DNA of 64,000 bases from positions 7,540,001 through 7,604,000 of the forward strand of contig NZ_CP045740.1 of NCBI RefSeq assembly GCF_009650765.1. Reading direction: 5' to 3'. Made by a program: the position numbers and the translations under genes. Position 1 is the stretch's first letter. Every line of letters starts with the position of its first letter. Source of the stretch: Streptomyces sp. SUK 48. GTDB taxonomy: Bacteria; Actinomycetota; Actinomycetes; Streptomycetales; Streptomycetaceae. The notes under the pieces are model-generated. The model saw nothing but the letters and a program-made list of their open reading frames with translations, ran no database searches and was not told the origin of the DNA. Positions 1-6,584 of the stretch are shown in pieces.

Positions 1-1
1 C

Positions 2-1021
2 GTCCCGGACCCGGGGATCAAGGAGCCGACCGACGCCGTCGTGAAGGTCCGGGCGGTCACGATCTGCGGCACCGACCTGCACATCCTCAAGGGCGATGTG
101 CCGGAGGTGCGGCCGGGCACGGTGCTGGGCCACGAGGCCGTCGGGGAGGTCGTCGAGACCGGTGGCGACGTGCGCACCGTGCGCCCCGGCGACCGGGTGC
201 TGCTCTCCTGCGTCACCTCCTGCGGCCGCTGCCGCTACTGCCGGGAGGGCGTCTACGGCCAGTGCCTGGGCGGCGGTGGCTGGATCCTCGGCCACCTGAT
301 CGACGGCACGCAGGCCGAGTACGTCCGCGTCCCGTACGCCGACCTGTCCGTGCACCCGCTGCCCGGCACCCTGGCGAGCGAGGACGCCGTCCTGCTCGCG
401 GACATCTTCCCCACCGCCTACGAGGTGGGCGTGCTCAACGGGCGGGTGCGGCCCGGCGACACCGTCGTGATCGTCGGCGCCGGTCCGATCGGGCTCGCGG
501 CGATCGCCACGGCCCGCCTGTTCTCGCCGGAGCGGATCATCGCCGTCGATCTGGCGCCGGCCCGTCTGGAGGCCGCCCGGCGGTTCGGCGCCGACGCGGT
601 CGCGGATGCGCGCGAGGCCCCGCACCAGCTGGTCGCGGACCTCACCGGCGGGCTCGGCGCGGACGTGGCCATCGAGGCTGTCGGCCTGCCGGACACCTTC
701 GAACTGTGCACCCGCGTGGTGCGCCCCGGCGGACACGTGGCCAACGTCGGCGTGCACGGCGGACCCGCCACGCTGCACCTGGAAGGCCTGTGGATCAGGG
801 ACGTCACCATCACCACCGGCCTGGTGGACACCTGCTCCACGCCGACCCTGCTGAAGATGGCCGCGGCCGGCCGGCTGCCGACGGGCCGACTGGTCACCCA
901 CACCTTCCCGTTGGACCAGATGGAACGGGCGTACGACGTCTTCGCCCGCGCCGCCGAGACCGGCGCCCTCAAGGTCGTCCTCGGCGGGGAGCGCCACGAA
1001 CTGGCCGTCCCCACGGCCTGA
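2..1021 (+). CDS. Zinc-dependent alcohol dehydrogenase, 5'-truncated by window edge
   Basis: Medium-chain dehydrogenase/reductase that would oxidise an alcohol with NAD(P). The reading frame is open from base 2 with family-typical residues (VPDPGIKEPTDAVVKV) before the first in-frame GTG at 41, so the true start lies left of the window. Catalytic zinc motif TICGTDLH and GHEAVGEV, the four-Cys structural zinc loop (CVTSCGRCRYC plus a further Cys), and Rossmann VIVGAGPIGLAA are all present. The C-terminus looks complete. Its place beside a DevS-like kinase and CBS-BON proteins resembles actinobacterial dormancy loci, where such a dehydrogenase is usual; that role is inferred. The physiological substrate cannot be told. 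Confidence 0.93.
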   Translation, partial: VPDPGIKEPTDAVVKVRAVTICGTDLHILKGDVPEVRPGTVLGHEAVGEVVETGGDVRTVRPGDRVLLSCVTSCGRCRYCREGVYGQCLGGGGWILGHLIDGTQAEYVRVPYADLSVHPLPGTLASEDAVLLADIFPTAYEVGVLNGRVRPGDTVVIVGAGPIGLAAIATARLFSPERIIAVDLAPARLEAARRFGADAVADAREAPHQLVADLTGGLGADVAIEAVGLPDTFELCTRVVRPGGHVANVGVHGGPATLHLEGLWIRDVTITTGLVDTCSTPTLLKMAAAGRLPTGRLVTHTFPLDQMERAYDVFARAAETGALKVVLGGERHELAVPTA

Positions 1022-1225: not shown

Positions 1226-1274
1226 TCTCGCCCAGGCCGTACGACTCTCCACAGTGCCGTTCGGACCCGCCCCG

Positions 1275-1288
1275 GGGCCGTACGGCCC
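1275..1288. promoter_or_regulatory. DevR/OsdR-like palindrome upstream of the GAF kinase
   Basis: GGGCCGTACGGCCC is a perfect 14-bp palindrome, 151 bp before the kinase GTG. It fits GGGNC-N4-GNCCC, the core of the mycobacterial DevR/DosR site (GGGACTWWAGTCCC). Similar sequences occur at 5920 and 6172 in the same locus. Binding is inferred, not shown. Confidence 0.5.
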
Positions 1289-1439
1289 AGCCCGCGCCCT
1301 GGGGGCACATGCCCCCGGCATGCCGAGGATCACAGGGCGCGGAAGCGACGGCCGCGTATCCCCGCCCTGCTCCGAGCGGCTACCGTGTCCTTCGGAACCC
1401 GTCGTCCGAGGCATGGCCCGACGGGAGGTGGAGGACGTG

Positions 1440-3158
1440 GTGACCGGAACGGAGGGGCCCGGCGTGCGGCTGCCGCAGCTGAAGCTGGACGAGCTGCTGG
1501 AGGAACTGCAGGCCAGGATCGACGCGGCCCGCGGTACCCGGGACCGGGTGCACAGCCTGCTGGAGGCGGTCCTCTCCGTCGGCCGCGAGCTGGAGCTGGA
1601 GCAGGTCCTGCACTCCATCGTGGAGGCCGCGGCGGCGCTGGTGGACGCGGAGTACGCGGCGCTGGGCGTCATCGGCCCGGACGGCACGACCCTCGCCGCG
1701 TTCCACACCGTGGGCCTGTCCGAGGAGCGGATCGCCGACATCGGCCCCTACCCGGAGGGCCACGGCATCCTGGGCGAGCTGATCCGCCACCCGGAGCCGC
1801 TGCGCCTTCCGAAGCTCTCCGCCCACCCCTCGTCGTACGGCTTCCCGGCCGGGCACCCGCCGATGAACACCTTCCTCGGCGTCCCGATCCGCGTCCGCGA
1901 CCAGGTCTTCGGCAATCTGTACCTCACCGAGAAGCGCGGTGGCGCCGACTTCGACGAGGAGGACGAGTCGGTCCTCGCCACCCTCGCCGTGGCCGCGGGC
2001 GTCGCCATCGACAACGCCCGCCTCTACGAGGACTCCCGGCTGCGCGAACGCTGGCTGCTGGCCAACGCCGAGATCAGCCACAGCCTGATGTCCGGCAGCG
2101 AGCGCGCCGAGGCCCTGGACCTGATCGCCGAACGCGCCCGGGAGATCACCGGCTCGGCGCTCGCCGCCGTCGCGATGCCGATGCCGGACACCGAGGCGCT
2201 CGGCGTGGAGATCGCGGTCGGCGCCCAGGCCGACGCCCACCGCGGACTCGTCCTGCCGCTGGACCACAGCCTGATGGGCCTGGCCTTCGCCGCCGCCGCG
2301 CCGGTCACCAGCGACGACGTCGCCCATGACCTGCGCGTCGGCCAGGACCCGCCCCGCTTCGAGGGCCTCGGCCCCGCCGTCGCCGTCCCGATCGGCACCG
2401 CCGAGGGCGGCGCCCGCGGTGTGCTGCTGCTGGCCCGCGAGAGCGACCGGCCGGCGTTCTCCGGCAAGGAGACCGAGATGCTGCGGGGCTTCGCCGCGCA
2501 GGCCGCGATCGCCATGGAGCTCGCCGAGCGCCGGCAGGCCGCCCAGCAGATCGCCCTCCTGGAGGACCGCGACCGCATCGCCCGGGATCTGCACGACCTC
2601 GCCATCCAGCGGCTGTTCGCCACCGGCATGACCCTGCAGAGCGCGGGCCGCTTCATCGAGCACCCCGAGGCGTCCGAGCGGGTCCTGCGCGCCGTGGACG
2701 ACCTGGACGAGACCATCAAGATCATCCGGTCGACCATCTTCGGGCTGCGCGCCCGCGAGGGCACCGCGGCCGGCGGGCTGCGCGCCCGCGTGGTCCGGGT
2801 GGCGGGCGAGGCCGCCCCGGTGCTGGGCTTCGCGCCGAGCGTGCGCATGGAGGGCCTGGTCGACACCGACGTACCGGGCGAGATCGCCGACCACGTGGTC
2901 GCCGTCCTCTCCGAGGCCCTCACCAACATCGCCCGGCACGCCCACGCGGACCGCGCCGAGGTGCTGCTCACCGCCGCCGGCCGCGAGGTGCGTCTGCGGG
3001 TCCGCGACAACGGCGTCGGCATCCCCGCCGGCGGCCGCCGCAGCGGGCTGCGCAACATGGCGGAACGCGCCGAGCGGCTCGGCGGCCGGCTCGACGTGAC
3101 GAAAAGCGAAGGGGGCGGGGCCACACTGGAGTGGCGGGTCCCGCTGCCCGCCTCGTAA
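1440..3158 (+). CDS. GAF-domain sensor histidine kinase, DevS/DosS-like
   Basis: Membrane-free sensor kinase of 572 residues, close to the 578 of M. tuberculosis DevS. Two GAF domains (about 50-200 and 225-365), a HisKA_3 dimerisation motif RIARDLHDLAIQRLF with phospho-acceptor His at 385, and a C-terminal ATPase (NIARHAHA, DNGVGIP, GLRNMAERA). In GAF-A, His139 (in GHPPM) and Tyr161 (in NLYLTEK) are 22 residues apart, as are the haem-ligating His149 and distal Tyr171 of DevS, so haem-based O2/NO/CO or redox sensing is likely. The start is GTG 1440 after GGAGG; ATG 1413 in the same frame is an alternative. No response regulator adjoins it here. Confidence 0.9.
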   Translation: MTGTEGPGVRLPQLKLDELLEELQARIDAARGTRDRVHSLLEAVLSVGRELELEQVLHSIVEAAAALVDAEYAALGVIGPDGTTLAAFHTVGLSEERIADIGPYPEGHGILGELIRHPEPLRLPKLSAHPSSYGFPAGHPPMNTFLGVPIRVRDQVFGNLYLTEKRGGADFDEEDESVLATLAVAAGVAIDNARLYEDSRLRERWLLANAEISHSLMSGSERAEALDLIAERAREITGSALAAVAMPMPDTEALGVEIAVGAQADAHRGLVLPLDHSLMGLAFAAAAPVTSDDVAHDLRVGQDPPRFEGLGPAVAVPIGTAEGGARGVLLLARESDRPAFSGKETEMLRGFAAQAAIAMELAERRQAAQQIALLEDRDRIARDLHDLAIQRLFATGMTLQSAGRFIEHPEASERVLRAVDDLDETIKIIRSTIFGLRAREGTAAGGLRARVVRVAGEAAPVLGFAPSVRMEGLVDTDVPGEIADHVVAVLSEALTNIARHAHADRAEVLLTAAGREVRLRVRDNGVGIPAGGRRSGLRNMAERAERLGGRLDVTKSEGGGATLEWRVPLPAS

Positions 3159-3198
3159 CCCGGGTTCCCGGGGCGCGGGTCCGGTGGGCACCCGAACG

Positions 3199-3212
3199 GG
3201 TCCGGTCGGCCC
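3199..3212. promoter_or_regulatory. Weak DevR/OsdR-like palindrome upstream of CBS-BON gene
   Basis: GGTCCGGTCGGCCC matches GGGNC-N4-GNCCC with one mismatch and lies 68 bp before the CBS-BON start. In such GC-rich DNA it could be chance. Its placement matches the better sites at 1275, 5920 and 6172. Confidence 0.3.
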
Positions 3213-3279
3213 GTGACAGCGGCCGGGCGGCGGCGCAGGCTGAACGTGCGGCGCGGTACCAGAGCCCCTGGAGGAAGCC

Positions 3280-3981
3280 ATGGACGGCACTCCGACCACC
3301 GTGGACGACGTGATGACCCGCAGGGTGCTCGCCCTGCGCACCGGCGCGGGCTTCAAGGACATCGTGCAGGCCATGCGCGAGTGGCGGGTCGGCGCCGTGC
3401 CCGTACTGGACGACGCGGGGCACGTGGTCGGCGTGGTCTCCGAGGCGGATCTGCTGCCCAAGGAGGAGTACCGCGACCGCGATCTCGACCGGTACGGCAG
3501 GATGCGCCACCTCGCCGAGCTGACCAAGGCCGAGGCGGCGGGCGCGGAGGCGCTGATGACCACCCCGGCGGTCACCGTGGCGCCGGACGCCACCCTCGGC
3601 CACGCCGCGCGCGTCATGGCCCGCGCCCGTGTCAAGCAGCTCCCGGTCGTGGATGCCGAGGGCACCCTGCTGGGCATCGTGAGCCGTTCCGACCTGCTGA
3701 AGGTGTTCCTGCGCGGCGACGCGGAGATCGCCGACGAGGTCGGCGGCGACGTCGTCACCCGGCTCTTCGGCGCTGAAGCGGCCGGGATCCGGGTGGAGGT
3801 GCACGATGGTGTCGTGACGCTCAGCGGCCGGGTCCGGGAGACCGTGCTCGTCCCGCTCGCCGCGCGCCTCGCGCGGGCCGTGCCCGGTGTGGTGGACGTG
3901 CGGTGCGCGCTGGCCGGGCCGCCGCGCCACCCGGATCTGGACCCGGACCTGCCGGACGCCGAGTCGGCCCGCACCCGCTGA
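3280..3981 (+). CDS. CBS-pair plus BON domain protein
   Basis: Cytoplasmic 233-residue protein with two CBS modules (about 8-62 and 85-140; DVMTRRVLALRTGAGFKDIV and ALMTTPAVTVAPDATLGHAA) and a C-terminal BON domain (about 150-215; VEVHDGVVTLSGRVRE). CBS pairs bind adenosyl nucleotides; BON domains are thought to bind membranes or ligands. A GGAGG site lies 6 nt before the ATG. It is a paralogue of the minus-strand gene at 4707-5381, including a shared SEADLLPKEE motif. Proteins of this kind belong to hypoxia/dormancy regulons in actinobacteria; the exact role is unknown. Confidence 0.9.
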   Translation: MDGTPTTVDDVMTRRVLALRTGAGFKDIVQAMREWRVGAVPVLDDAGHVVGVVSEADLLPKEEYRDRDLDRYGRMRHLAELTKAEAAGAEALMTTPAVTVAPDATLGHAARVMARARVKQLPVVDAEGTLLGIVSRSDLLKVFLRGDAEIADEVGGDVVTRLFGAEAAGIRVEVHDGVVTLSGRVRETVLVPLAARLARAVPGVVDVRCALAGPPRHPDLDPDLPDAESARTR

Positions 3982-4013
3982 GGGGCCGCCGGGCGCGAGA
4001 GGAGGCGGTGACG

Positions 4014-4616
4014 ATGACACGGACACCTGCCACGACGGTCAGGCCGGTACGGCTGTGGCGGTGGCGGCGCAATCCGCTGCGGCGGCACAGCGATGTCGTC
4101 GAGGCATGGATCGTCCTCGCCACCTGGGTGCTCGTCCTCGTCTGCGGCGTGGCCGCCGGTCTGCTCGCGGCCCGGGCGTCCGCCGCCTCGTACGCCGCCC
4201 GGCTCGCCCAGGTGCACCCCGTCACGGCGGTGCTCACCGACCCGGCCCCCACGACCCCGGCCGCCGGCACCGGCTACGACGACGGGCGGGTGTGGGCGAG
4301 CGTGCGCTGGACCGACGCGGACGGCTCGGTGCACACCGACCGGGCGAAGGCCGCCTCCGGCGCCCCCGCGGGCAGCAGCGTCACGGTCTGGGCGAACCGC
4401 GCCGGCCATGTGGTCGCCCCGCCGGTCACCGGCGCCTCGGCCGACCTCCAGGCGGCCCTCACGGGCGTCCTCGTCGGCCCCTCGGCAGGCGCGGCCGTGT
4501 GGTGCGCGGGCCGGCTGGTCCGGGGCCGGCTGATCCGGCGCAGGATGGCCGAGTGGGACGAGGAGTGGAAGCAGATAGGGCCGCGCTGGGGGAACCTCAG
4601 CGGCGGGCGCGGGTGA
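4014..4616 (+). CDS. Rv1733c-like membrane protein
   Basis: 200-residue protein with an Arg-rich N-terminus, one clear membrane helix near residues 27-50 (AWIVLATWVLVLVCGVAAG), an extracytoplasmic domain of about 100 residues containing a VWASVRWTDADG strand, and a second hydrophobic stretch near 150-170 followed by a basic tail. This layout matches the Rv1733c family of DosR-regulated mycobacterial membrane proteins. GAGAGGAGG precedes ATG 4014 by 9 nt; the in-frame GTG at 4008 would be too close. It follows the CBS-BON gene by 32 bp and is probably cotranscribed. Function unknown. Confidence 0.82.
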   Translation: MTRTPATTVRPVRLWRWRRNPLRRHSDVVEAWIVLATWVLVLVCGVAAGLLAARASAASYAARLAQVHPVTAVLTDPAPTTPAAGTGYDDGRVWASVRWTDADGSVHTDRAKAASGAPAGSSVTVWANRAGHVVAPPVTGASADLQAALTGVLVGPSAGAAVWCAGRLVRGRLIRRRMAEWDEEWKQIGPRWGNLSGGRG

Positions 4617-4706
4617 ACGACGACACCGGACCGAGGGGCTACGACGATCCCGGTCCATGGGGCCGCGGGCGTCTTCCGTGGGGCCGCGGGCGTCCTCCGC
4701 CGGTGC

Positions 4707-5381
4707 TCAGCCCTCCGTCAGATGGCAGTCCACCCCCACCACGCCCTCCACACCCCGCACCATGCGCACCGCGAGCGGGATGCGCGTACCGTCCGTGACC
4801 TTCCCGGTCAGCGTCACGACCCCGTCCACCACCACGACGTGCACCGGCTCGACCGGCGCCGGGAACAGCACGTCCAGCACCTCGCGCCGGATCTCGTCGG
4901 CCAGTTCACGGTCCTCGCGCAGGAACACCTTGAGCAGGTCGCCCCGGCTGACCACGCCCTCCAGCACCCCCTCCGCGGTCACCACCGGCAGCCGCTTGAC
5001 GCGCTTGAGCGCCATGATGCGCGCCGCCTCCGCGAGCGTGGCGTCGGCGTGCACGGTGACGGCGGGCGTGCTCATCAGGTCCCCGGCGGTCAGCCCGCCC
5101 GCCTTGGCCAGGTCGTCCAGCCGGCGCCGCTGGGTGAGCCGGTCGGGATCGCTGTCCCGGAACTCCTCCTTGGGCAGCAGATCCGCCTCGGAGACCACGC
5201 CGACCACCCGGCCGTCGCCCTCCAGGACGGGCAGGGCGCTGACGTTCCACTGCTCCATCCGCGCCACGATGTCCTTGAACAGGGCCGTACGGCCCACCGC
5301 CACCGCGGCGCGCGTCATCACGTCGCCGACCCGGCTCGGGCCCCCGGTCCCGGCCTCCCTGACGGGCGGGCGGGCGGTCAC
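4707..5381 (-). CDS. CBS-pair plus BON domain protein (second paralogue)
   Basis: 224 residues: CBS1 about 18-72 (DVMTRAAVAVGRTALFKDIV), CBS2 about 97-150 (DLMSTPAVTVHADATLAEAA), BON about 160-222 (VVVVDGVVTLTGKV). The GTG start at 5381 overlaps the TGA of the upstream cyclic-nucleotide-binding gene (GTGA), which implies translational coupling of a nucleotide-binding pair. It is convergent with the Rv1733c-like gene. Inferred role: an energy-state sensor in the same stress regulon. The ligand is not evident. Confidence 0.9.
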   Translation of the reverse strand: MTARPPVREAGTGGPSRVGDVMTRAAVAVGRTALFKDIVARMEQWNVSALPVLEGDGRVVGVVSEADLLPKEEFRDSDPDRLTQRRRLDDLAKAGGLTAGDLMSTPAVTVHADATLAEAARIMALKRVKRLPVVTAEGVLEGVVSRGDLLKVFLREDRELADEIRREVLDVLFPAPVEPVHVVVVDGVVTLTGKVTDGTRIPLAVRMVRGVEGVVGVDCHLTEG

Positions 5382-5836
5382 TCGGCGCTCCCGCTGCCGT
5401 AGGGCGCGTAGAGGTCGAGCAGCCGGACCCGGGAGGCGTGCAGCCGCTGGGCGACCACGCGGCCGACCCAGAGCGCGATCGCCCGCCCGAACTCCGGGTC
5501 CTCGTCGCACAGCCCGAGCACGGGACCGGCGTCGAACTCCCAGGCCCGTACCGGGCTCGTCGCCTCGGCGCCCAACTGCCAGATGTGCGGCGGGAAGTGC
5601 CAGGACCAGCCGACCAGTTCGCCGTGCCCGAGGGTCTCGATGACGGCGGGCCGGCGGCCGGGTACCCGCAGGTCGAGGGCGATCGTGCCGGTGCGCACGA
5701 TCCAGAAGCGGTCGGCGCGCCGCCCCTCCTCGAACAGCCGGGTGCCGGCCTCGAAGGAGACCTCGCGGGCGAGGCTCATCAGCCGTTCGCGCCGCACGGG
5801 GTCGAGCGCCGTGGTCATGGTGGTCGCGGAGGTCAT
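5378..5836 (-). CDS. Stand-alone cyclic-nucleotide-binding domain protein
   Basis: 152 residues, covering a Crp-type cNMP-binding beta-roll (about 15-130; SFEAGTRLFEEGRRADRFWI, GTIALDLRVPG, LGHGELVGWSWHFPP) but ending before any helix-turn-helix. It therefore cannot be a normal Crp-type DNA-binding regulator. ATG 5836 has GGGAG upstream (GGAAGGGAGCCGGTGCG). Lead gene of a coupled two-gene unit with the CBS-BON protein, with a DevR-like palindrome 84 bp upstream. It may bind cAMP or another ligand, or simply act as an adaptor. Confidence 0.85.
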   Translation of the reverse strand: MTSATTMTTALDPVRRERLMSLAREVSFEAGTRLFEEGRRADRFWIVRTGTIALDLRVPGRRPAVIETLGHGELVGWSWHFPPHIWQLGAEATSPVRAWEFDAGPVLGLCDEDPEFGRAIALWVGRVVAQRLHASRVRLLDLYAPYGSGSAE

Positions 5837-5919
5837 CGCACCGGCTCCCTTCCTGGGGTGGTGATCCCAGCGTGGGCGCGTCCGCCCGGCGCCGCCACAG
5901 GTCACCCGGACCCGGGCGG

Positions 5920-5933
5920 GGGCCTTTCGGCCC
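5920..5933. promoter_or_regulatory. DevR/OsdR-like site upstream of cNMP/CBS-BON unit
   Basis: GGGCCTTTCGGCCC fits GGGNC-N4-GNCCC. It is 84 bp upstream of ATG 5836 on the minus strand, a usual distance for an activator site. It closely resembles published DevR sites that have a TTT centre and a GGCCC right arm. Confidence 0.5.
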
Positions 5934-5968
5934 AGGGGCGGGCACCCGGCCGCGGCGGAGCCGGAACG

Positions 5969-6010
5969 CGAAGGGCGTGAGGCGCGAGGGGCAACGAAGG
6001 GCGTGAGGCG
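5969..6010 (+). repeat. 16-bp direct repeat in intergenic region
   Basis: CGAAGGGCGTGAGGCG occurs at 5969-5984 and exactly again at 5995-6010, followed by degenerate GAAGGGCG units to about 6030. It lies in the 454-bp gap between divergent genes at 5836 and 6291. No function is evident; the gap otherwise holds the palindromes at 5920 and 6172. Confidence 0.7.
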
Positions 6011-6171
6011 TGAAGGGCGGGAAGGGCCACCCGCTTCTCGCGGATCCGGATTGCGCGGTGCGCGGCTCCCGGCCGCTTCTCCGCGTCTCAACGGCTCTTC
6101 CCGCCACTACCAGCACACCACGAGAACCGCCGGCGCACCAGTGCCGTCCGGTCCGGGGCGGTCAGGCGGCA

Positions 6172-6185
6172 GGGCCGTACGGCCC
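6172..6185. promoter_or_regulatory. DevR/OsdR-like palindrome upstream of small gene
   Basis: GGGCCGTACGGCCC, identical over 14 bp to the palindrome at 1275, sits 105 bp before the small gene at 6291. An identical 14-mer also occurs inside the CBS-BON coding region (5282-5295), so part of the match may be chance. Confidence 0.45.
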
Positions 6186-6290
6186 CGGTCGTATCCCGCC
6201 CCGATGGCGCACTATGGATGACAAGCGTACGGGGATATAAACACGCAAACCCGTCATGGGGGCGTGGAGCGGAGAAGAGAGGCTGAGAGC

Positions 6291-6584
6291 ATGGTCTTCG
6301 CATCGTGGACCACCCCCGGGGTCTTCACCGGCCGGGGCGGCGCGCGCACCGTGGAGGCGGGCGTCCTCACCGGCGACCTGACCGTCCACACCACCTGGGA
6401 CGGCCGCAGGGCCGATGTGGCGGTGCAGTACAGCGGCACCTCCCAGTGGTTCACGCTCAGCGGCAGCCCGGTGTCCTGCCGCTCCGAGCGGGCCAGCCGG
6501 GACCTGCACCAGGAGGTCGTCGAGTCCATCAGGGCGGGCGCCGAGGCCACCGTTCCCCGGTTCCACCAGACCGCCACCCCGTAG
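6291..6584 (+). CDS. Small hypothetical protein
   Basis: 97-residue soluble protein with no recognised family motif. It starts VFASWTTPGVFTGRGG after the Met and has beta-strand-like segments (DLTVHTTWDGRRADVAVQYS; QWFTLSGSPVSC). ATG 6291 is preceded by AGAGG about 10 nt upstream; an in-frame ATG at 6264 has no better site. A DevR-like palindrome upstream suggests it belongs to the same stress regulon. No membrane segment or signal peptide. Confidence 0.7.
   Translation: MVFASWTTPGVFTGRGGARTVEAGVLTGDLTVHTTWDGRRADVAVQYSGTSQWFTLSGSPVSCRSERASRDLHQEVVESIRAGAEATVPRFHQTATP

Follow-up and report, generated by a model that had tools for sequence, protein, structure and literature searches.

Analysis of a 64-kb stretch of the Streptomyces sp. 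SUK 48 genome (8.34 Mb, 73% GC; contig NZ_CP045740.1, positions 7,540,001-7,604,000; hereafter the window) indicated, with a probability that we put at about 0.92, that its first 6.6 kb form the right half of an OsdR/DevR-type regulon, in which a DevS-like sensor kinase and neighboring dormancy-type genes would be controlled through 16-bp palindromic boxes (Table 1). The original prediction, made from the sequence of the window, had proposed such a regulon, and it is upheld by a regulator of the cognate type encoded 5.6 kb beyond the left edge of the window and preceded by a box of its own, by the promoter bias of the boxes and by their conservation. The gene set that it named was also borne out: the kinase, two CBS-BON proteins, a cNMP-binding-domain protein (Pfam), an alcohol dehydrogenase (ADH; Pfam) and an Rv1733c-family protein (NF050032).

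A mechanism is proposed by analogy with relatives. The GAF-GAF kinase encoded at 1437-3158, which has a DevS/DosT-like pocket and would therein bind heme, would sense falling oxygen or nitric oxide (NO), hypoxia being the presumed signal, and would phosphorylate the OsdR-like regulator. Phosphorylated OsdR dimers, often in pairs about two helical turns apart, would bind 16-bp boxes close to AGGGCCGNNCGGCCCY some 80-120 bp before start codons (139-184 bp for the kinase). Once bound, OsdR would activate the genes for ADH, universal stress protein (USP), CBS-BON, Rv1733c-family, cNMP and small proteins, and also osdR and the kinase gene, which would amount to positive feedback.

Box sequence, density and genomic setting

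The loose consensus GGGNC-N4-GNCCC proved uninformative, because its 14 matches in the window equal what chance gives in DNA of 73% GC (13.97 expected from shuffles). Four copies of the exact 14-mer GGGCCGTACGGCCC are present in the genome, where base composition predicts about 0.9, and three of the four, at window positions 1275, 5282 and 6172, lie within 5 kb of each other. All palindromes listed beforehand (1275, 5920, 6172 and 5282) are present, as is the copy at 3199 with its one mismatch. Sites were scored with a symmetric 16-position matrix built from 25 distinct OsdR sites (26 printed) in the S. coelicolor list, Table 1 of PMC5069765; these are mostly predictions derived in that paper from the osdR promoters of 12 Streptomyces, a part of them confirmed by electrophoretic mobility shift assay. 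The sole copy of GGGCCGTACGGCCC beyond the cluster (genome 3432554-3432569, locus L008) scores 17.8 bits and lies some 20 bp ahead of a predicted start codon.

The matrix was run over 204 kb around the window and over 400 kb of control DNA, taken from this genome as 20 stretches of 20 kb. Sites of at least 13 bits numbered seven in the 204 kb, five of them inside 7534483-7546186, against one in the control, and ten sites of at least 11 bits fell within 13.8 kb (7532432-7546186) against 11 in the whole control (Poisson 1e-11). The first 6.6 kb of the window hold six sites of at least 11 bits, one being the copy inside coding DNA, where 0.18 would be expected from the control density; the remaining 57.4 kb hold four. 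By predicted gene models, which follow codon usage and are not curated annotation, nine of the ten cluster sites are intergenic and the tenth is the coding copy. Seven of the intergenic boxes precede a predicted start codon by 80-120 bp; for the two kinase boxes the distance is 139-184 bp and varies with the choice of kinase start. The four top entries in Table 1 of PMC5069765 stand at -81, -100, -99 and -102, and the full table spans -391 to +36.

Three stricter patterns are rarer across the genome than their reversed controls: GGGMCSNNSGKCCC (120 sites against 222), RGGGMCSNNSGKCCCY (23 against 31) and GGGCCGNNCGGCCC (32 against 44) show no enrichment. When all 32 places of GGGCCGNNCGGCCC were classified, promoter bias was confined to the high-scoring subset: 12 of 14 places with at least 13 bits are intergenic, compared with 4 of 18 below that score (Fisher p 0.001), and 11 of these 12 have a predicted start within 350 bp. 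A comparison of promoter and coding hits, suggested in the original prediction, favors the regulon for strong sites, while the weaker ones are intergenic about as often as the 19% of non-coding DNA in the examined stretches would give. Only two high-scoring places are coding, namely window 5282 and genome 6804388.

The copy at 5282, against which the original prediction had itself warned as a possible chance match, was considered for a functional role and rejected. It scores 11.8 bits in all four nearest relatives, which keep VGRTALFKD unchanged and lack the palindrome, broken there by one base because the glycine codon is GGG instead of GGC. It is judged to be a coincidence of conserved codons; it could conceivably be a site gained in this one strain.

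Sensor kinase and response regulator

Alignment of the first GAF domain of the kinase (GAF-A) with the solved heme domains of DosT (3e-47) and DevS (2e-42), in the structures 2vzw and 2y8h, shows that the HPPM histidine and LYLT tyrosine are retained. These residues, His140 and Tyr162, and the phospho-accepting His386 are kept in 80 of 80 relatives, which are the best 80 of 325 confirmed kinase loci (L029-L108; 79 titled Streptomyces and one Actinobacteria bacterium, with L033 and L039 from one strain). We take the pocket histidine and tyrosine to be the heme ligand and the distal residue, as H149 and Y171 in DevS. The comparison covers these two of the 18 residues counted in PMC5069765. Heme sensing of oxygen and NO has been proposed for OsdK of S. 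coelicolor (PMC9739842). Elsewhere in the genome, a DevS-like GAF-A (52% identity; HPFM, LYLSE) is followed by what appears by eye to be a SpoIIE-type phosphatase (genome 2194780-2196183; L109:4780-6183), possibly giving a heme-sensing phosphatase.

Here the kinase gene and osdR are separated by about 7 kb and diverge on opposite strands, so that they do not share an operon. For the relatives, an operon was scored where an osdR-like gene of at least 55% identity lay no more than 1.3 kb upstream in the same orientation, and boxes were sought in the 420 bp before the kinase; L044 and L103 were left out as too short upstream, which gave 78 classifiable loci. Ten of these are osdR-kinase operons, and all ten have a strong box upstream of osdR and none a box of at least 10 bits upstream of the kinase. 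Such a box precedes the kinase in 44 of the 68 other loci (37 with at least 13 bits), compared with 20 of 940 control windows (one with at least 13 bits). The difference between 44/68 and 0/10 (Fisher p 1e-4) indicates that the box generally goes with the transcription unit. Among the 24 non-operon loci without a box are some (L051, L053, L077 and L106) whose osdR lies farther upstream, about 1.9-2 kb away in the same orientation; these may represent longer operons.

The separation of the two genes, together with the low share of operons among relatives (10 of 78), could also mean that the kinase at 1437 is a target of the regulon that signals to a different regulator, with the local OsdR driven by another kinase. 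A one-GAF kinase at genome 6283758 resembles GAF-A (42%) and the kinase core (34%). We regard this reading as unlikely: nowhere else does the genome match the kinase along its full length, the best other match covering GAF-A alone (52%), and operon-type kinases are scattered over several branches of a quick kinase tree.

The regulator itself is best matched among solved structures by DevR (3c3w; E 4e-72, aligned nearly over its full length), the next being VraR (1e-40). Inside the window no DevR-like regulator was found, the best regulator match there being partial (48 bits at 7572436). The phospho-acceptor aspartate is present in 43 of 43 aligned loci, and the recognition-helix residues KTVKN in 41 of 43, two not being covered. 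Asp54 and K182 of DevR are named in the literature, and we take the other helix residues to be DNA contacts as well. A box precedes osdR in 40 of 41 testable related loci, at a median of -99.5, a count that is partly circular because the published motif came from osdR promoters. The S. coelicolor osdR gene carries the box AGGGCCGGTCGGCCCC at -81 (PMC5069765), similar in sequence to the one at -80 here. At genome 6283758-6285519 (L110, L138), the second GAF histidine kinase is directly followed by the closest paralogue of the OsdR-like regulator in this genome (44% identity, at 6284905).

That paralogue, or a counterpart of SCO3818, might be what mainly reads the boxes. The genome carries a dozen or more regulators 36-44% identical to the OsdR-like one, and OsdK phosphorylates the orphan SCO3818 in vitro in S. 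coelicolor (PMC9739842). Such a reading is very improbable, however, given that the regulator at 7533702 has no close paralogue, has DevR as its best solved match (in a comparison that covers this regulator alone), lies inside the box cluster and keeps a strong box at its own promoter in 40 of the 41 testable relatives.

Conservation and helical phasing of the boxes

In the 1.667 Mb covered by the kinase loci of the 80 relatives there are 351 sites of at least 13 bits, a density of 21 per 100 kb, compared with one (0.25 per 100 kb) in the 400-kb control; part of this contrast could be genomic background, because the control comes from one genome. In the four nearest relatives the kinase box pair is aligned throughout, the 1274 box with its 14-base core intact and the 1253 box, which the original prediction had missed, at 10.8 bits or more. 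The core of the small-gene box is likewise kept in all four, and this box reaches at least 13 bits in all four relatives that have the gene inside the fetched locus. The osdR box is intact in three of three aligned near relatives and the core of the ADH box is aligned in three, being unaligned in L032; over the wider set the ADH box is found in 29 of 42 testable loci. The 3198 box scores 11.2 bits in three of the nearest relatives and 5.3 in the fourth, and conservation of the 5919 box is weak (scores of 6.7, 11.6 and 11.4 bits in three, no alignment in the fourth).

Just 3' of the kinase boxes lies a further 16-bp palindrome, GGGGGCACATGCCCCC (window 1301-1316), with a loose-pattern match, GGGGCACATGCCCC, at 1302 that the original prediction had likewise not listed. 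It scores -7.8 bits on the OsdR matrix and is partly retained in two of the four near relatives, and it is possibly the site of another regulator or a hairpin.

Phasing was assessed on 330 non-redundant boxes of at least 13 bits from the 80 loci, the window and L006, with companions of at least 6 bits. Companions at 20-22 bp numbered 86, compared with a mean of 1.85 and a maximum of 5 in 20 sets of random positions, and lesser excesses occurred at 32-33, 42-43 and 54-55 bp. Among the periods tried, 10.5 bp was best, and the signal persists once the 20-22 bp peak is removed (n=97, p ~2e-4, with the period chosen post hoc). The 21-bp distance between the window boxes at 1253 and 1274 belongs to this class. 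A spacing of 20-22 bp would suit two dimers bound to the same helical face, as for DevR sites; in M. tuberculosis, DevR binds several adjacent, closely packed sites cooperatively (PMC3029386), and adjacent boxes occur here too. The words helical, spacing and tandem are absent from the main text of PMC5069765. An OsdR-like double box with 22-bp spacing (11.1 and 19.7 bits) also stands at genome 1785586-1785623 (L167), downstream of one gene's 3' end and some 250 bp ahead of the following gene.

That the boxes are chance palindromes in 73% GC DNA, as the chance-level loose pattern in the window and the rarity of the three stricter ones might suggest, is hardly credible, and is already refuted for the strong boxes by score-dependent promoter bias, local density, conservation and phasing.

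Several observations weigh against the regulon as proposed. Because the kinase and regulator genes are not in one operon, their pairing is argued from homology. No box of at least 10 bits precedes the kinase in 24 of the 68 non-operon loci, and in L031 the kinase box pair lies about 3.9 kb upstream of the kinase. The 1253 box deviates from the consensus in both arms, and the boxes before the cNMP and CBS-BON 1 genes score low and are unevenly kept among near relatives; boxes of at least 13 bits precede only 9 of 34 testable cNMP genes and 10 of 28 testable Rv1733c-like genes. No enrichment of TANNNT -10 hexamers was seen downstream of the boxes, a small excess at 10 bp (12 of 618 flanks) overlapping the box edge. 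An AT bump 31-36 bp past the box center (AT 0.44-0.47 at three positions in 183 gene-oriented promoters, several of them homologous) suggests, though not decisively, a -10 region.

Other genes, wider candidate targets and known systems

Table 1. Boxes and genes of the probable OsdR/DevR-type locus and settings of the second box cluster (window positions unless marked genome)
Feature	Position	Strand	Description
OsdR/DevR-like response regulator	genome 7533702-7534403 (L006:13702-14403)	-	233 residues; receiver (REC) and LuxR helix-turn-helix domains
osdR box AGGGCCGACCGGCCCC	genome 7534483-7534498	.	18.4 bits; 80 bp before osdR start codon
ADH OsdR box CGGGCCGAACGGCCCA	genome 7539838-7539853	.	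14.9 bits; left of window
Zinc-type alcohol dehydrogenase (ADH)	1..1021 (starts genome 7539954, 47 bases left of window)	+	355 residues; Pfam ADH_N, ADH_zinc_N
Secondary kinase box AGTGCCGTTCGGACCC	1253..1268	.	12.2 bits; 21 bp before main kinase box
Main kinase OsdR box GGGGCCGTACGGCCCA	1274..1289	.	15.7 bits; exact 14-mer at 1275
DevS/DosT/OsdK-like kinase (P0001)	1437..3158	+	573 residues; GAF-GAF-HisKA_3-HATPase_c; earlier ATG at 1413 possible
Weak OsdR box GGGTCCGGTCGGCCCG	3198..3213	.	11.3 bits; 82 bp before CBS-BON 1; one-mismatch copy at 3199
CBS-BON protein 1	3280..3981	+	233 residues; Pfam
Rv1733c-family protein	4014..4616	+	200 residues; NCBIfam NF050032, E 8e-53, above cut-off; no Pfam match
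CBS-BON protein 2	4707..5381	-	224 residues; GTG start overlaps cNMP gene stop; Pfam
Coding copy of palindrome	5281..5296	.	inside CBS-BON 2 gene; codons for VGRTAL
cNMP-binding-domain protein	5378..5836	-	152 residues; Pfam
OsdR box GGGGCCTTTCGGCCCA	5919..5934	.	12.5 bits; 83 bp before cNMP gene
OsdR box AGGGCCGTACGGCCCC	6171..6186	.	19.2 bits, strongest in window; 120 bp before small gene
Conserved small protein	6291..6584	+	97 residues; behind strongest box of window
Second-cluster box setting			before pyridoxamine-oxidase-like gene
Second-cluster box setting			between divergent oleate hydratase gene and run of antiporter-like, arginine deiminase, ornithine carbamoyltransferase and carbamate kinase genes
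Second-cluster box setting			between universal stress gene and PAS-SpoIIE gene

The small protein has no Pfam or NCBIfam match, and its homologues gave no function: none of its 61 database relatives carries a precomputed Pfam domain, and the named ones are Streptomyces hypothetical proteins. Pfam finds no DNA-binding domain in the cNMP-binding-domain protein, and comparison of proteins P0005 and P0004 gave no relation. To the left of the window, a phosphoketolase gene (genome 7537434-7539812) lies between the boxed USP and ADH genes, following two USP genes of which the first has boxes in front; in relatives it has its own box of at least 13 bits in 3 of 25 testable loci. Some 10-20 kb left of the osdR cluster are genes for the large and small subunits of a [NiFe] hydrogenase with hyp-like maturation genes (genome 7511515-7524777, L205). 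These hydrogenase genes (7511-7525 kb) are not claimed as targets, having no more than a weak OsdR-like box at 7524965 (11.7 bits).

A second box cluster, at genome 7182944-7191706, comprises boxes of 20.4, 18.0 and 16.4 bits. The 18.0-bit box stands 139 bp before the antiporter-like permease gene that heads the predicted arginine deiminase operon and is itself below NCBIfam cut-offs. This permease box reaches at least 13 bits in three of five same-genus full-length orthologues (that of this strain, G003 and G062) and is lacking in G068 and G069, and none of three orthologues from another genus has an upstream box of at least 11 bits. A partial permease match, L208, has a box about 0.9 kb before its presumed start, and of 27 homologues of 52-57% identity (L209-L235) only L218 has an upstream box of at least 11 bits, about 1.1 kb off. 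Two further boxes of 18 bits, at 3925355 and 3926296, precede SseB-like and VKOR-family genes that adjoin a cytochrome oxidase subunit I gene. The arginine deiminase operon, phosphoketolase and the 97-residue protein are predicted targets, which form the newer part of the analysis; the wider regulon beyond the locus is more speculative. Among the papers searched, none joins OsdR with phosphoketolase, and at the level of titles and abstract openings the matches listed for Streptomyces, hypoxia and DosR/OsdR describe no OsdR-type control of arginine deiminase or hydrogenase.

The OsdR switch itself is already known; the split kinase, the phasing rule and the added targets are extensions. The locus shares its box consensus with the OsdK/OsdR system (DevS/DevR, SCO0203/SCO0204) of S. 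coelicolor and S. lividans (PMC5069765), where ADH, USP, CBS-annotated and Crp-like genes are also among the targets or co-expressed genes (PMC5069765, PMC6302529). In an S. lividans strain that produces a foreign protein, genes of these classes are upregulated along with osdR (Table 2 of PMC6302529, where we read the entries named cystathionine beta-synthase as CBS-domain proteins). In contrast to that system, the kinase gene here is detached from osdR and preceded by a double box of its own, phosphoketolase is encoded within the cluster, and the predicted arginine deiminase target does not appear in Table 1 of PMC5069765. The regulator and the GAF-A pocket also relate to the DevR/DosR regulon of M. 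tuberculosis with its kinases DevS and DosT, although the host is a Streptomyces and the target set overlaps only partly. Dormancy-type proteins of the Rv1733c, CBS-BON and USP families are matched here by NF050032 and Pfam, family membership alone being silent on regulation.

In most relatives examined the kinase and regulator genes of the switch lie apart, with a box often retained at the kinase itself; this is consistent with selection to keep the kinase under feedback control. We suggest only tentatively, and with more doubt than confidence, that OsdR of this lineage runs a wider low-oxygen energy program, taking in the arginine deiminase operon, phosphoketolase and the VKOR/SseB/cytochrome-oxidase-I neighborhood, and that dimers spaced at two, three, four or five turns act jointly, giving a helical-phase code for OsdR to read; were this so, output would be predictable from box spacing. 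Streptomyces are usually regarded as obligate aerobes. The analysis extends one published S. coelicolor regulon to a quantitatively supported promoter rule of sequence, distance and phase over many Streptomyces, and names candidate new targets in fermentation and anaerobic ATP supply.

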